Shown: positions 58,267-64,000 of the stretch, one piece after another
Position numbering within the stretch: the first letter of the stretch is position 1
Layout: each line of letters opens with the position of its first letter
Assembly: GCF_023015905.1 (NCBI RefSeq)
Contig: NZ_JALKBD010000004.1
Location: 186,001 to 250,000, forward strand
Length of the DNA: 64,000 nucleotides
Direction: 5' to 3'
DNA from: Arenibacter sp. F20364
GTDB lineage: Bacteria > Bacteroidota > Bacteroidia > Flavobacteriales > Flavobacteriaceae
Made by a program: the position numbers and the translations under genes
The notes under the pieces: generated by a model
The model's database searches: none
What the model was told of the DNA's origin: nothing
Seen by the model: only the letters and a program-made list of their open reading frames with translations

Positions 58267-58585
58267 TTTTCAAACCTATATGGAAGGGCGTCCAAAGGCT
58301 AAAACCCATAGCTATTTTGGCGCCTTTTTTTTGAGGAAACCAATAACAGATGTACCCATTTTTTGAGGCCCATCCAAGCCGCTCTGAGAACTTTAGGGAT
58401 TGTACCCAACTTCGCCGAGAATTTGCAAAAAGGCATTCCCTATCCTTCCAAATGGATACAATAAAAACCGCTCCTACCCCTTGTGCAGGCTTCTATCTCC
58501 CTTGTTGGAAAAATATTTAGATATGGTGTTTAAAATTAAAGATTCACATTTTTTTGTGTAACTTTAAAAAAAGTTGCCATAGGCT
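58267..58585. other. 319-base spacer after trpB
   Basis: Apart from the probable terminator, the region holds one 56-residue ATG-started frame (58350-58520) with no recognisable features, no ribosome-binding site and a proline- and cysteine-rich composition; I do not call it a gene. A TAACTTTA sequence at 58559-58566 is one base off a -7 box for the DUF1508 gene. Confidence 0.5.
58284..58330 (+). terminator. Probable intrinsic terminator of trpB
   Basis: AAGGGCGTCCAAA pairs imperfectly with TTTGGCGCCTT (single-base bulges) over an ~18-base loop, followed by a run of T. Confidence 0.6.
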
Positions 58586-58909
58586 ATGCTACAAATAAAC
58601 AAGGAATCTGATACCACCTATACCTTCAGTCTGCAATCCGAAAGCGGACAGACCCTTCTGACCAGTATTGCCTTCAAAAACAGGGAGGAGATTGACGAGA
58701 CCATTGCCAGTCTTAAGGTCCTAATTGGGCAATCTTCGGTTTTTGAGCGCAAGACCGACTATAACGGCAAATTTCTTTTCACCATGAAGAATAGTGGAGG
58801 CAAAATTATTGGCCACTCTATGCTTTATAGTTCCGAGGCCGGAATGGAAAATGGTATAAAAAATTTAAAAACAAGTATCTCTCTTTTACCTGATGCTATT
58901 GGCTTATAA
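58586..58909 (+). CDS. YegP-like DUF1508 protein with two repeats
   Basis: The 107-residue protein holds two copies of the DUF1508 unit: YTFSLQSESGQTLLTSIAFKNR with a following helix (about residues 11-50), and FLFTMKNSGGKIIGHSMLYSSE with EAGMENGIKNLKTS (about 63-98). The paired units form the small YegP fold, a swapped domain seen in structures of this family, whose role is not known. Its end overlaps the convergent aldolase gene by six bases. Confidence 0.82.
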   Translation: MLQINKESDTTYTFSLQSESGQTLLTSIAFKNREEIDETIASLKVLIGQSSVFERKTDYNGKFLFTMKNSGGKIIGHSMLYSSEAGMENGIKNLKTSISLLPDAIGL

Positions 58910-59926
58910 TTTTGAAAGAACATCCAGAAAAGCTTCGTGCATGGCATCGGTATAATCCAAATGGGTAACGATACGCAGTTTTTTTTGCCCCATACCTATA
59001 ATTTGAATATTCCTTTTTCTCAGTTTGTCCAAAAAATCATCAGTGGTCATTTGCTTTTCATCGATCTCGAAAATAACAATATTGGTCTCCGTAGGTTCCA
59101 CCTTTTTAATGTACGGCAAACCGTTCAACAGCAAACTTATTTCCCTGGCCTTCCTATGGTCCTCCGCCAATCGTTCCCTATTATTTTCCAAAGCATAAAT
59201 TCCGGCTGCCGCAAGATAGCCCGCTTGTCGCATGCCACCACCTAGTACCTTCCTAACCCTAATGGCTTTGTCAATATGCTCCTTATCCCCCAACAAAACG
59301 GAACCTACGGGACATCCCAGCCCCTTGCTTAAACAAACACTTATAGTATGGAACAAGGCCCCGTAATCCATGGGCGCTTCATTTTTGGCAATCAGGGCAT
59401 TCCAAAGTCGTGCTCCATCCAAATGATATTTTAATTGATGCTTGTCACAAACCTTTCCAATGGCCCTCAATTCCTCCAAGTTGCAACAGGCCCCTCCACC
59501 TTTATTCGTGGTATTCTCAATACAAACCAAAGATGTTAAAGGGCTATGATAGAAGTCCGGCGGATTAATTACTTCCTCGACTTGACTTGCTGTCATCATT
59601 CCTCTATGACCATCTACCAATCTACAGGAAACACCACTATTAAAGCTTACCCCTCCCCCTTCATAATTATAAACATGGGCATACTTATCACATATTAACT
59701 GCTCCCCCTGTTGGGTATGCAGCTTAATAGCTGTTTGATTGGCCATGGTACCACTTGGAAAAAACAAGGCGGCTTCCATTCCGAACAACTTCGCCATCAT
59801 TTTTTCCAGCCTATTCACTGTGGGATCATTTTTAAAAACATCATCACCTACTTCAGCTGCCATCATAGCTTGAAGCATTTCCGGGGTGGGTCTTGTTACC
59901 GTGTCACTGATTAGGTTTATCTGCAT
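58904..59926 (-). CDS. Low-specificity L-threonine aldolase
   Basis: The 340-residue fold-type I PLP enzyme splits threonine or allo-threonine into glycine and acetaldehyde. It starts INLISDTVTRPTPEMLQAMM and has the family's early DxxTxP motif. KYHLDGARLWNALIA contains the Asp and Arg that contact the cofactor. SVCLSKGLGCPVGSVLLG contains the Schiff-base Lys. The closing segment DFLDKLRKRNIQIIGMGQKKLRIVTHLDYT is typical of the C-terminal domain. The gene is convergent with the DUF1508 gene and divergent from the ATP-grasp operon. Confidence 0.93.
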   Translation of the reverse strand: MQINLISDTVTRPTPEMLQAMMAAEVGDDVFKNDPTVNRLEKMMAKLFGMEAALFFPSGTMANQTAIKLHTQQGEQLICDKYAHVYNYEGGGVSFNSGVSCRLVDGHRGMMTASQVEEVINPPDFYHSPLTSLVCIENTTNKGGGACCNLEELRAIGKVCDKHQLKYHLDGARLWNALIAKNEAPMDYGALFHTISVCLSKGLGCPVGSVLLGDKEHIDKAIRVRKVLGGGMRQAGYLAAAGIYALENNRERLAEDHRKAREISLLLNGLPYIKKVEPTETNIVIFEIDEKQMTTDDFLDKLRKRNIQIIGMGQKKLRIVTHLDYTDAMHEAFLDVLSKL

Positions 59927-60149
59927 AAAGGGTAATAATTATATGAATTGAATTCAACCTAATGAATTAAGATTCTAAAATTATATAAAACCTACCATAT
60001 ATTTTCAAGTAGGGATTTTTTTCATGTCAATTGACAGGAATCATCAATAATCCCATCACATTTTTTAACAATGGATAATTATCTAACCGAATTATAATTA
60101 AAACGTGGATAAGCAATTAAAATAAAGTAAATTAGGGAAAAATAGGCGT

Positions 60150-61616
60150 ATGAATCAGGACCTAAAAAAACCCATATTTTCATCTTATATAAACAATACC
60201 AATCTTTTTGATGAAGTCTTTGATCCCAATGGCATTGCCAAAAATGTCTATCAAAAATTGTTCGAGTTGTATGGAAACCACTCCATTCAGGATTATGTAC
60301 AGCTGAACAATAAGGCAAAATCGTCCTTCTTTAACCAAGGGATTACTTTTCAGGTATATGAAAACAAAGAGACCCAGGAGAAAATATTCCCTTTTGATCT
60401 TTTTCCAAGAATTATAGATGAAGATGAATGGGAAATCATAGAAAAGGGATCCATTCAACGCAGTAAGGCCTTGAACTTATTCTTATGGGACGTTTATCAC
60501 GATAAAAAGATTATCAAGGACGGGGTAGTCCCCTTAGATCTTATAAGTTCCTCTGCCAACTACCTACATCAAATGATAGGTGTTGATCCGCCAGGAGGTA
60601 TTTACAATCACATATCGGGCACTGATATCATAAAGCACTCTGACGGAAATTATTATGTGCTTGAAGACAATATTCGATGTCCCTCCGGTGTAAGTTATGT
60701 TATTTGTAATCGCACCGCCTTAAAGAGGGCTCTTTTTGGGGTTTTCAACCACTACAAAACCCATTCGGTAACCAATTACGCCGAAAACCTGTTAGAGATT
60801 CTGGAAAGCGTAAAACCAAAAGGGGTGGATGTTCCTAATTGCGTGGTGCTTACCCCTGGGATGTACAATTCTGCCTTTTATGAACATTCATATCTGGCAA
60901 AGGCTATGGGCGTGGAATTGGTAGAAGGTCGGGATTTGTTTGTAGAGAACGATTTTGTGTACATGAAGACTATTAGCGGCCCAATAAAAGTTGATGTTAT
61001 TTACCGTAGGGTAGACGACCAATACTTGGACCCCTTAGAATTTAAACCCGATTCGGCCTTGGGAGTACCCGGGCTTTTCACCGCCTACAAGAAAGGCAAT
61101 GTCTGCTTGGCAAATGCCCCCGGAACGGGTGTAGCAGACGATAAGGCCATCTATACCTATATGCCGGAAATAATTAAGTATTATTTGGACGAATCCCCAA
61201 TTCTTAACAATGTCCATACCTACCACTGCAGCAGGCCGGACGAACTTAAATATGTCCTGGAACATATTCAAGAACTAGTCATAAAACCTGTGGACGAAGC
61301 AGGTGGCTATGGTATTTCCATTGGTAACCGACTCACCAAGGAGGAAATAAAGGTAGTCCAAGAGGAAATTAAACAAAGTCCAAGAAAATATATTGCCCAA
61401 CCCATTATGTCATTATCGGTGCACCCCACCTATATAGATGACACGGAGTCCTTTGAACAACGACATGTAGACTTAAGGACCTTTACACTCTTAGGGGATA
61501 AAAAGGAATTTGTTCTAAAGGGAGGACTTTCAAGGGTTGCGCTCAAAAGAGGGAATCTGATTGTAAATTCTTCACAAGGCGGGGGTTCCAAGGACACCTG
61601 GGTACTAAAAAAATAA
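60150..61616 (+). CDS. Circularly permuted ATP-grasp family ligase
   Basis: The 488-residue protein belongs to the circularly permuted ATP-grasp type 2 group (DUF404/407-like). ATP and metal contacts are suggested by VLEDNIRCPSGVSYVICNR, VIYRRVDDQYLDPLEF and the strand VIKPVDEAGGYGISIG, plus RHVDLRTFTLL near the end. An active-site loop YYVLEDN precedes the Pro-Ser-Gly-Val. ATP-grasp enzymes join a carboxylate to an amine. Iyer and colleagues predicted that this group makes peptide-like metabolites or protein tags together with alpha-E and transglutaminase-like proteins. That set is present here in three consecutive genes. Substrate is unknown. Confidence 0.88.
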   Translation: MNQDLKKPIFSSYINNTNLFDEVFDPNGIAKNVYQKLFELYGNHSIQDYVQLNNKAKSSFFNQGITFQVYENKETQEKIFPFDLFPRIIDEDEWEIIEKGSIQRSKALNLFLWDVYHDKKIIKDGVVPLDLISSSANYLHQMIGVDPPGGIYNHISGTDIIKHSDGNYYVLEDNIRCPSGVSYVICNRTALKRALFGVFNHYKTHSVTNYAENLLEILESVKPKGVDVPNCVVLTPGMYNSAFYEHSYLAKAMGVELVEGRDLFVENDFVYMKTISGPIKVDVIYRRVDDQYLDPLEFKPDSALGVPGLFTAYKKGNVCLANAPGTGVADDKAIYTYMPEIIKYYLDESPILNNVHTYHCSRPDELKYVLEHIQELVIKPVDEAGGYGISIGNRLTKEEIKVVQEEIKQSPRKYIAQPIMSLSVHPTYIDDTESFEQRHVDLRTFTLLGDKKEFVLKGGLSRVALKRGNLIVNSSQGGGSKDTWVLKK

Positions 61617-61625
61617 ATCAATCCT

Positions 61626-62573
61626 ATGTTAGCAAGAGTTGCCAATAATCTATTTTGGATGGGCCGTTATATTGAACGCGCCGAACATATTGCCAGATAT
61701 TTAAATGTTAATTATTTCTCGTCCTTGGACGCACCAAACGAGCTGTCACAGTCCCGACAATTTGTACTGCAATCCATGATGTTTATGGTAGGGGAACCTG
61801 TTAAGGACAATACCATTATTCTAAATGAGGAAGAAATTCTATACAACATCGGGCTAAATCCCAATATACCCTATTCCATTATTAACCATGTGAAATTTGC
61901 CAGGGAGAATGCCAACAGTGCAAGAGACCTTATTTCTACCGAACTGTATGAATCCATTAACAAATTTTATCATTTCGTAATCAATTATTCAATAGAGGAT
62001 TTCACCAAAAAGGGATTATACGATTTTACGGTAAATGTCACAGAAATGACCGCCATTTTAAGAGGTAAGATACGCGGCACCCTTTTGCATGATGAGGTTT
62101 ACGCCATTATCATGCTCGGAATAAATTTGGAAAGGGCCACACAAGTAATCCGGATCATCAATGCCAAATACAATGATGCCGTTAAGGCCAAAGGCAGTTA
62201 TGGGGATAAAATAGGCCATAGCTTTGAATGGATCACATTGCTCAAATGTGTGGAATCATATGACATGATGCGCAGGTTCTATAAAAAGACCCCAACAAGC
62301 ATTTCCACGTTAGAGTTCCTAATATTAAATCCAGATTGTCCCAGATCCGTTATAAACAGTATCAATCAGGTCCACAAACACATTAGGGTTTTGGATGAAT
62401 CCAAAGCTCCCAATAAAAATTCCACCGCATTTTTAATTAGTAAGGTAAAAGGCGAATATGAATTTAAATTTGCTGAGGAAATCGAAGAGGACATTCAGAG
62501 CTTCATTGAAAAGATCCTACATAATCTATTGCAGATTAGTGTTAAAATGGAAAAAGAGTTTTTTAACTATTGA
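61626..62573 (+). CDS. Alpha-E domain protein (DUF403)
   Basis: The 315-residue all-helical protein starts MLARVANNLFWMGRYIERAEHIARYLNVN, the clearest signature of the alpha-E family (NLFWMGRYIERAE). Another conserved stretch is RENANSARDLISTELYESINKFYHF. At the C terminus are the segment LEFLILNPDCPRSVINSI and a charged end. The family is found almost only with circularly permuted ATP-grasp and transglutaminase-like genes, and its biochemical role is not established. The gene follows the ATP-grasp gene after nine bases, so the two are one transcript. Confidence 0.9.
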   Translation: MLARVANNLFWMGRYIERAEHIARYLNVNYFSSLDAPNELSQSRQFVLQSMMFMVGEPVKDNTIILNEEEILYNIGLNPNIPYSIINHVKFARENANSARDLISTELYESINKFYHFVINYSIEDFTKKGLYDFTVNVTEMTAILRGKIRGTLLHDEVYAIIMLGINLERATQVIRIINAKYNDAVKAKGSYGDKIGHSFEWITLLKCVESYDMMRRFYKKTPTSISTLEFLILNPDCPRSVINSINQVHKHIRVLDESKAPNKNSTAFLISKVKGEYEFKFAEEIEEDIQSFIEKILHNLLQISVKMEKEFFNY

Positions 62574-62615
62574 AGTTAAAGCATTGACTTACATTTGTGT
62601 TAAGAACTACTTGAA

Positions 62616-63467
62616 ATGTCATTTGAATATTCTGTTACCTACAATACCGAAAATGATTACGAGAATCCCGTAGAAAATGCCTCTTGGCAATTTTTGATCG
62701 TGCCCGAGAATAATGATACACAAGAATTGGTAGGTATTGAAATTGAGAATTCATTGGGTGCCAAAAATGAATTCTCGCAAAATGGGTATGGTTTTCAGAC
62801 CATACGAATAAATACCCAGGAGCAATTCCAAAAATTAAATTTTAGGGCCACTTTTATTCTAAAAAAAACCAGCCTTAATCCTTTTGGGCAAGTCCCCATC
62901 TTTAATATCTTGGACAACTATGAGCTTGCTCAAAGTTTGGATTTCAAGGTTGATTTTGAGCAATTTTTGGGCCAGACCAAATTTACCACCCTGCCGCAGG
63001 ATTCAAAAAATCTCTTTGTATTTGACACTACCCTAAGTATATTTGATAATCTTCAAAAATTAAATAATTGGGTCTATTTTTATATTCACTTCAATACTGG
63101 TGTGACCCATGTGAATACCTTGTTGGAGGAAATTATAAATAACCGGGCGGGTGTGTGCCAAGATTTTACCCATTTATTCTGTGCCTTGGCACGGGCCAAT
63201 AATATTCCCGCACGTTATGTTTCTGGTTACCTGCATCAAGGGAATGGCTATTTTGGCGATGCGCAAATGCATGCTTGGGCAGAAGTTTATGTGCCCCAAA
63301 TTGGCTGGATGGGCTTTGACCCTACCAACAATATATTGGTCGATGACAACCACCTTAAAGTAGCCCACGGAAAGGACTTTAAGGATTGCTCGCCATTAAA
63401 AGGTGTAGTTTATTCACAAGGTGACAACAAAACCGTTCATTCCGTGGAAGTACAGGCCCAACAATAA
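62616..63467 (+). CDS. Transglutaminase-like cysteine peptidase of the ATP-grasp operon
   Basis: The N-terminal part (about residues 1-85) is the beta-rich region typical of the bacterial transglutaminase-like group. The transglutaminase core has a Cys-His-Asp triad: NNRAGVCQDFTHLFCALAR (Cys181), GDAQMHAWAEVYVP (His219) and GFDPTNN (Asp235). With no signal peptide it is probably cytoplasmic. Such proteins in this operon type are predicted to cut or transfer the peptide or isopeptide bond made by the ATP-grasp enzyme. It starts 42 bases after the alpha-E gene. The order ligase, alpha-E, transglutaminase is the recurrent one. Confidence 0.9.
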   Translation: MSFEYSVTYNTENDYENPVENASWQFLIVPENNDTQELVGIEIENSLGAKNEFSQNGYGFQTIRINTQEQFQKLNFRATFILKKTSLNPFGQVPIFNILDNYELAQSLDFKVDFEQFLGQTKFTTLPQDSKNLFVFDTTLSIFDNLQKLNNWVYFYIHFNTGVTHVNTLLEEIINNRAGVCQDFTHLFCALARANNIPARYVSGYLHQGNGYFGDAQMHAWAEVYVPQIGWMGFDPTNNILVDDNHLKVAHGKDFKDCSPLKGVVYSQGDNKTVHSVEVQAQQ

Positions 63468-63535
63468 ATAACATTTCCCATTTGGTCCAAAATCAAAAAA
63501 AAGAATCCTATTTTTGGCTGAAAATTAAATAGAAT

Positions 63536-64000
63536 ATGATAACCACGGACCATTATAAGAGTCTCATTGATCGCCTTGGTGCGTTAAGGAGGTATCTTTG
63601 ACATAGATGCCAAGCTTATAGAAATAGAAAACGAGGAGGAAAAGACCTTGGCCCCAGATTTTTGGAACCATCCCCAAGAGGCACAAGAGCAGATGAAGCT
63701 GATTCAGTCCAAGAAACAATGGGTAGATGACTTTGACGCTGCCAAAAGCTTAGTGACGGATCTAGAGATTTTCTTAGAATTTCAGAAAGAAGGTGAAATG
63801 TCCGAGGCCGATGTTGAAGCCCATTACGACAAGACCATTGAGGCCTTGGAGAAATTGGAATTCAAGAACATGCTTTCGGCAGAAGGGGATGAACTTACGG
63901 CCATACTTCAAATTACGGCCGGTGCCGGAGGTACGGAAAGCTGTGATTGGGCGTCCATGCTTATGAGGATGTACATGATGTGGAGTGAAAAGAATGGTTA
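63536..64000 (+). CDS. prfB: Peptide chain release factor 2, programmed +1 frameshift (3' end cut off)
   Basis: The zero frame from ATG at 63536 encodes 21 residues (MITTDHYKSLIDRLGALRRY and L) and stops at TGA (63599-63601). Moving the frame by one at CTT-T gives GAC at 63600 and a frame open to the window end (join 63536-63598 with 63600-64000). The continuation has APDFWNHPQEAQEQMK and later TAGAGGTESCDWASML, both release factor 2 signatures. The GGQ motif should lie beyond the window. RF2 recognises UGA and UAA; low RF2 slows termination at the in-frame UGA and favours the shift. The sequence error alternative is rejected because all frameshift elements are present. Confidence 0.95.
63587..63602 (+). 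promoter_or_regulatory. prfB programmed +1 frameshift site
   Basis: AGGAGG (63587-63592), the internal Shine-Dalgarno-like sequence, is followed by TAT and then CTT TGA C (63596-63602). This spacing and the slippery CTT with UGA-C context match the classical prfB shift site. Confidence 0.93.

Follow-up and report, generated by a model that had tools for sequence, protein, structure and literature searches.

An Anbu-free ATP-grasp, Alpha-E and transglutaminase-like operon in Arenibacter and its possible role in amide-bond chemistry

What does a bacterium do with an ATP-grasp ligase, an Alpha-E protein and a transglutaminase-like amidase encoded side by side, when the proteasome homologue Anbu, reported elsewhere as the fourth member of the set, is missing from its genome? 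The question is raised by a 64,000-nucleotide stretch of DNA from Arenibacter sp. F20364 (contig NZ_JALKBD010000004.1, positions 186,001 to 250,000), referred to here as the window. Three plus-strand genes encode, in order, a circularly permuted ATP-grasp ligase (60150..61616, 488 amino acids), an Alpha-E protein (61626..62573, 315 amino acids) and a transglutaminase-like cysteine amidase (62616..63467, 283 amino acids), separated by 9 and 42 bases. Pfam matches, coordinates and gaps confirm the families, order and tight spacing given in a preliminary description, which had been made from the letters of this DNA alone.

The published counterpart is a four-gene operon of ATP-grasp, Alpha-E, transglutaminase and Anbu, interpreted in 2009 by Iyer et al. 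as a peptide-synthesis or tagging system, as cited in two later papers (PMC5666114, PMC6376114). The preliminary description had called the system unassigned. With respect to the literature this no longer holds, since proposals date back to 2009 and an Anbu operon, phosphate release and nitrogen control have been described; it does hold for substrate and product, none being named for this set in the open-access literature searched. On sequence grounds, the Arenibacter operon belongs to the published association in an Anbu-free form, as it combines a circularly permuted ATP-grasp gene with an adjacent Alpha-E gene and an adjacent transglutaminase-like gene that carries a catalytic triad. Its three protein families and their order are shared with the Anbu operon, and homologous genes occur in Bacteroidota; it differs in that Anbu is found neither next to it nor anywhere else in the genome. 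Pfam model PF00227 gave zero matches in this genome at E 1, so neither Anbu nor HslV was found, and no match was obtained there with a profile of eight Bacteroidota Anbu rows from such operons (Pfam Proteasome matches, with L186 below the cut-off).

The absence of Anbu is common among carriers of the set. Anbu was detected in 25 of 395 Bacteroidota genomes, all of which also carry the ATP-grasp/Alpha-E pair, while 116 of the 141 pair-bearing genomes, including that of the window, are without it. When the Flavobacteriaceae were sampled at one genome per genus, Alpha-E was found in 51 of 199 genomes and Anbu in three, all inside the 51; Anbu stood beside the pair in 12 of 57 loci examined in detail. 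In the ATP-grasp tree, the window's protein lies in a clade of 16 rows (support 100/100) that branches, with full support, together with three loci from a different family. Each of these has Anbu along with a divergent DUF2126 gene but lacks a small transglutaminase next to them. Because the sister clade has Anbu and the window's clade does not, Anbu appears to have been either lost or gained between the two lineages, and in the window's lineage a transglutaminase sits at the position of Anbu in the sister lineage. A non-pathogenic marine flavobacterium without Anbu or HslV would provide a less complex setting than the four-gene operons investigated to date.

The ATP-grasp and Alpha-E proteins co-occur almost perfectly. 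Among the 395 genomes, Alpha-E was matched in 143 and CP_ATPgrasp_2 in 152; after weak matches had been dropped (two and nine genomes, leaving 141 and 143), both families were present in 141 genomes, Alpha-E alone in none and ATP-grasp alone in two. Seven genomes (G079, G137, G190, G249, G275, G283 and G371) carry both stand-alone proteins unlinked, either on separate contigs or, in G249, whose assembly is a single contig, some 3.3 Mb from each other. Both are retained there although unlinked, and therefore a shared function, rather than hitchhiking, is favoured. The ATP-grasp and Alpha-E proteins appear indispensable to each other, Anbu and, less so, the transglutaminase being optional. A separate observation concerns one family of Bacteroidota with genomes of 2-3 Mb (f18; G010, G052, G063, G090 and others), in which most sampled genomes have the three-gene form and some Alpha-E proteins bear a long Gln-rich tail.

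Closer to the window, the operon recurs as a unit. The locus set analysed comprises the best 80 of 293 encoding places found with the ATP-grasp protein, nearly all in Flavobacteriaceae, and therefore represents the closest relatives and not a random sample; the nearest ATP-grasp genes, at 92-94% identity, belong to Arenibacter species. By tblastn, ATP-grasp and Alpha-E were present in all 80 loci and the transglutaminase in 79, the only gap being L084, whose contig stops inside Alpha-E; in two others (L033 and L062) the transglutaminase reaches the contig end. These three contig ends aside, the gene order is kept throughout, and the proviso of the preliminary description that the three genes might seldom occur together was borne out neither here nor among the 395 genomes. 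Spacing is compact as well: across 73 measurable loci, the ATP-grasp to Alpha-E gap has a median of 9 bases (range -7 to 234) and the Alpha-E to transglutaminase gap a median of 40 (range 25 to 374). Identity to the window falls from ATP-grasp through Alpha-E to the transglutaminase. Against eight Arenibacter loci, with synonymous divergence (dS) near saturation, the ratio of nonsynonymous to synonymous divergence (dN/dS) stayed well under 1 for all three genes, at 0.01-0.05 in ATP-grasp (computable in six of the eight), 0.03-0.06 in Alpha-E and 0.08-0.13 in the transglutaminase.

The ATP-grasp protein is a clear CP_ATPgrasp_2 member (E 3.4e-156, 520 bits against a cut-off of 32), with 3n6x (E 1.4e-149) as the sole clear relative of solved structure. 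Its metal and loop signature is intact: D159, E172, N174 and the loop G385-G386-Y387 are present, and not one of 123 stand-alone relatives lacks the corresponding residues. By analogy with ATP-grasp structures, E172 and N174 would be metal ligands, and the signature fits an enzyme that forms an acyl phosphate and, from it, an amide. The Alpha-E protein (E 1.2e-67, 229 bits against a cut-off of 20.8), of a family that Pfam describes as all-helical, is the least understood part of the set; a sequence-only structure search gave no significant solved relative (best profile match E 0.059). Its R93 and N95, forming an Arg-x-Asn motif, are nevertheless invariant in 128 of 128 stand-alone relatives.

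A possible connection between these two sets of residues is provided by fused paralogues, one of which is encoded in the same genome. The second locus (L003, 4660-11453 on contig C118) comprises a transglutaminase-DUF2126 protein of 1108 amino acids, a fused ATP-grasp/Alpha-E protein of 853 and a transglutaminase of 296; a long fused ATP-grasp/Alpha-E frame is likewise found in 24 of the 51 Alpha-E genomes of Flavobacteriaceae. The fused proteins form one separate clade in the ATP-grasp tree. All nine that were compared keep D159, have E172 and N174 replaced and are devoid of the GGY loop, and the same nine have lost R93 and N95 from their Alpha-E portion; K379 is retained in eight. This DUF2126 amidoligase cluster shares three domain families with the window and differs from it in a fused protein of a separate clade without the residues kept in the window proteins. 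Because its fused protein is without E172, N174, GGY, R93 and N95, the second locus is not simply a spare copy. For a widespread family set to which no substrate has been assigned since the first proposal, useful additions are the lineage without Anbu and the joint loss of residues in the fused paralogues; the comparison also names residues with which a role of Alpha-E in catalysis can be tested.

The third protein is a Transglut_core member (E 2.1e-23, 83 bits against a cut-off of 23) with a Bact_transglu_N match below the cut-off (21.7 against 27 bits) and 3isr (E 3.4e-16) as solved relative. The Cys-His-Asp triad that had been read from the sequence is indeed present, as C181-H219-D235, and is kept in 76 of 78 transglutaminases encoded by whole open reading frames (ORFs), the window's and those of 77 relatives. 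The two exceptions both come from Maribacter: Ser replaces Cys in L049 (10454-11293), and in L022 (10453-11291) the frame changes near residue 227, before the Asp, possibly through a sequencing error. ATP-grasp and Alpha-E are intact in both loci. The idea that Anbu-linked transglutaminases belong to PF21295 and the rest to PF08379 was ruled out, as eight of nine Anbu-linked proteins are PF08379 and only L168:10023 is PF21295. In the transglutaminase tree, eight of nine Anbu-adjacent proteins fall in one clade of ten, apart from that of the window; the remaining two rows of this clade have no Anbu alongside.

In a unifying view, the operon would encode a conserved cytoplasmic amide-bond system composed of an ATP-dependent amide ligase, an obligate helical partner and a thiol amidase for editing or removing the product; we judge the chances of this reading to be about even. 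The ATP-grasp protein would bind Mg-ATP, convert a carboxylate to an acyl phosphate and join this to an amine, be it an amino acid, another amine or a short peptide. Alpha-E, as the obligate partner, would bind or present the substrate by means of the helix bearing R93 and N95, and the transglutaminase-like enzyme would act as a thiol amidase or transamidase to trim, transfer or remove the product, a task in which Anbu might take part elsewhere. By extension from Proteobacteria, the system may be used when nitrogen is short. Consistent with a cytoplasmic location, no secretion signals were seen in the three proteins, by inspection by eye only. A Yersinia ATP-grasp protein from an Anbu operon is reported to release phosphate from ATP (PMC6376114). 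A bolder version seems to us improbable: in it, the helix with R93 and N95 would either complete the active site of the ATP-grasp or carry the substrate, and in marine Flavobacteriaceae the transglutaminase would have replaced the Anbu of the sister lineage. If true, Alpha-E would be a working half of the ligase, and the cycle of conjugation and release would be Anbu-free.

Several points weigh against an amide-bond system. Neither a substrate nor a product is known for it, nor any ligase activity, phosphate release by the Yersinia relative being all that was found in the literature searched. The Yersinia study saw no stable complex between the operon proteins and no peptidase activity of Anbu (PMC6376114), and the authors of the Anbu structure take Anbu as a degradative protease and peptide synthesis as less likely. 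The transglutaminase is the least conserved of the three genes and is damaged in two relatives with intact partners. The genome counts are unevenly sampled, roughly half of those with Alpha-E coming from one family, and are uncorrected for descent. The coupled loss in the fused proteins hints that the Alpha-E motif may be part of the catalytic apparatus but does not prove it, because the loss is confined to one clade, and so amounts to one event, and because further Alpha-E positions are altered there too.

How the target is conceived separates the alternatives. The ligase could make a small-molecule conjugate, for example an amino-acid or glutathione-like polyamine amide, which the transglutaminase-like enzyme would then hydrolyse, no protein being targeted. 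Circularly permuted ATP-grasps of characterised function are known to use small molecules, the deposited label of 3n6x is putative glutathionylspermidine synthase, and no precursor peptide gene was found near the operon. Glutathionylspermidine synthetase and 3n6x share the circular permutation with the window's protein, and the D-(12-13)-E-x-N spacing of the metal motif (D159, E172 and N174) is presumably like that of glutathionylspermidine synthetase. The name attached to 3n6x is, however, a database label; GSP_synth is absent among the Pfam matches of the operon proteins to E 0.01, the window's protein has no fused amidase domain, and it has an Alpha-E partner, which is not known to have a role in glutathionylspermidine chemistry. 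We regard a small-molecule pathway as possible though rather unlikely, and the amide-bond reading allows it as a sub-case. A polypeptide target would be expected if the ligase and amidase modified a ribosomally made peptide or a small protein tag with its gene at another site of the genome. A ligase with a peptidase is the expected make-up of a tag cycle, and protein tagging is an idea in print (PMC6376114); no conserved small ORF lies beside the operon, however, in a search that covered the window region and not the whole genome, and this explanation strikes us as very improbable.

In the third alternative, the operon would be a protein-turnover module for times of nitrogen shortage, tagging or editing proteins so as to feed them to a protease (Anbu where present) and free nitrogen. 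In nitrogen-limited Burkholderia cenocepacia, mutation of ntrC changed the expression of a four-gene cluster with these domains by log2 -8.2, -9.4, -9.4 and -6.0 (PMC5491218), and in Pseudomonas putida the Anbu and ATP-grasp genes were up by log2 4.44 and 3.99 on nitrate as compared with ammonium (PMC8050072); in marine metagenomes, urea-metabolism domains correlate with these families (PMC3597751). The degradative function favoured by the Anbu structure authors points the same way. The control by nitrogen limitation is, however, documented only in Proteobacteria and not in flavobacteria, and the protease proposed is missing here, because Anbu is absent from the window's genome, as is any PF00227 match at E 1. 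Nor was a urease found in this genome or a sigma-54 core (GG-N10-GC) upstream of the operon, despite the presence of a sigma-54 factor, and these absences also count against a use of the amide-bond system under nitrogen shortage. A Bacteroidetes-type promoter motif, absent in the window and seen in one of nine upstream regions (L007), was likewise discarded as a sign of nitrogen control. Taken together, protein turnover is a doubtful explanation for the window's operon.

The search for a precursor peptide compared, by tblastn with the 80 loci, all ORFs of 12 codons or more that fall largely outside genes at 58400-63700. No conserved small ORF was found beside the operon, and none conserved in Arenibacter lies in the intergenic region 59927-60149, in agreement with the earlier statement that no precursor gene is visible upstream or between the genes. 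Only one plus-strand candidate is widely conserved (63536-63601, 21 codons, in 73 of the 80 loci); it is the part of prfB that precedes the frameshift and could be taken by mistake for a peptide gene. Other ORFs, matched in 8-38 loci, overlap prfB or the end of the transglutaminase gene or run antisense to one of them, and the remaining matches are short, at chance level and without fixed position, as for 60031-60078 (17 loci, two of the eight from Arenibacter).

Akin to the window's set, RimK/RimB and RloABC of Pseudomonas pair an ATP-grasp with a peptidase, and RloB has a transglutaminase fold; the likeness is one of working principle only, as those systems use a non-permuted ATP-grasp, a retropepsin-like peptidase and an inactive membrane-bound transglutaminase, with no Alpha-E (PMC12239564).

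NCBIfam gave zero matches for any of the three operon proteins. The 223-base intergenic region (59927..60149) that separates the operon from a divergent threonine-aldolase-like gene (Beta_elim_lyase in Pfam) is its presumed promoter region; it aligns moderately among nine Arenibacter-type loci (77% mean column identity), and promoter-like and terminator-like consensus matches across 58500-64000 are at chance level, with no excess. The aldolase gene is near the operon in 69 of 81 loci, the window included. Directly upstream of it, a 107-amino-acid DUF1508-type protein is encoded at 58586-58909 and recurs near the operon in 61 of the 81. A divergent met-zincin-like protein of about 800 amino acids (DUF4953/DUF5117) lies upstream of the operon in 57 of the 81 loci, for example at 5369-7789 in L016, and is not beside it in the Arenibacter-type loci (the window and L006-L013). 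On the 3' side, outside the system, prfB (release factor 2; 63536..64000, plus strand, cut at the window end) carries a programmed frameshift, CTT TGA C, at 63596 after AGGAGG, and a prfB-like gene comes after the operon in 76 of the 80 loci.

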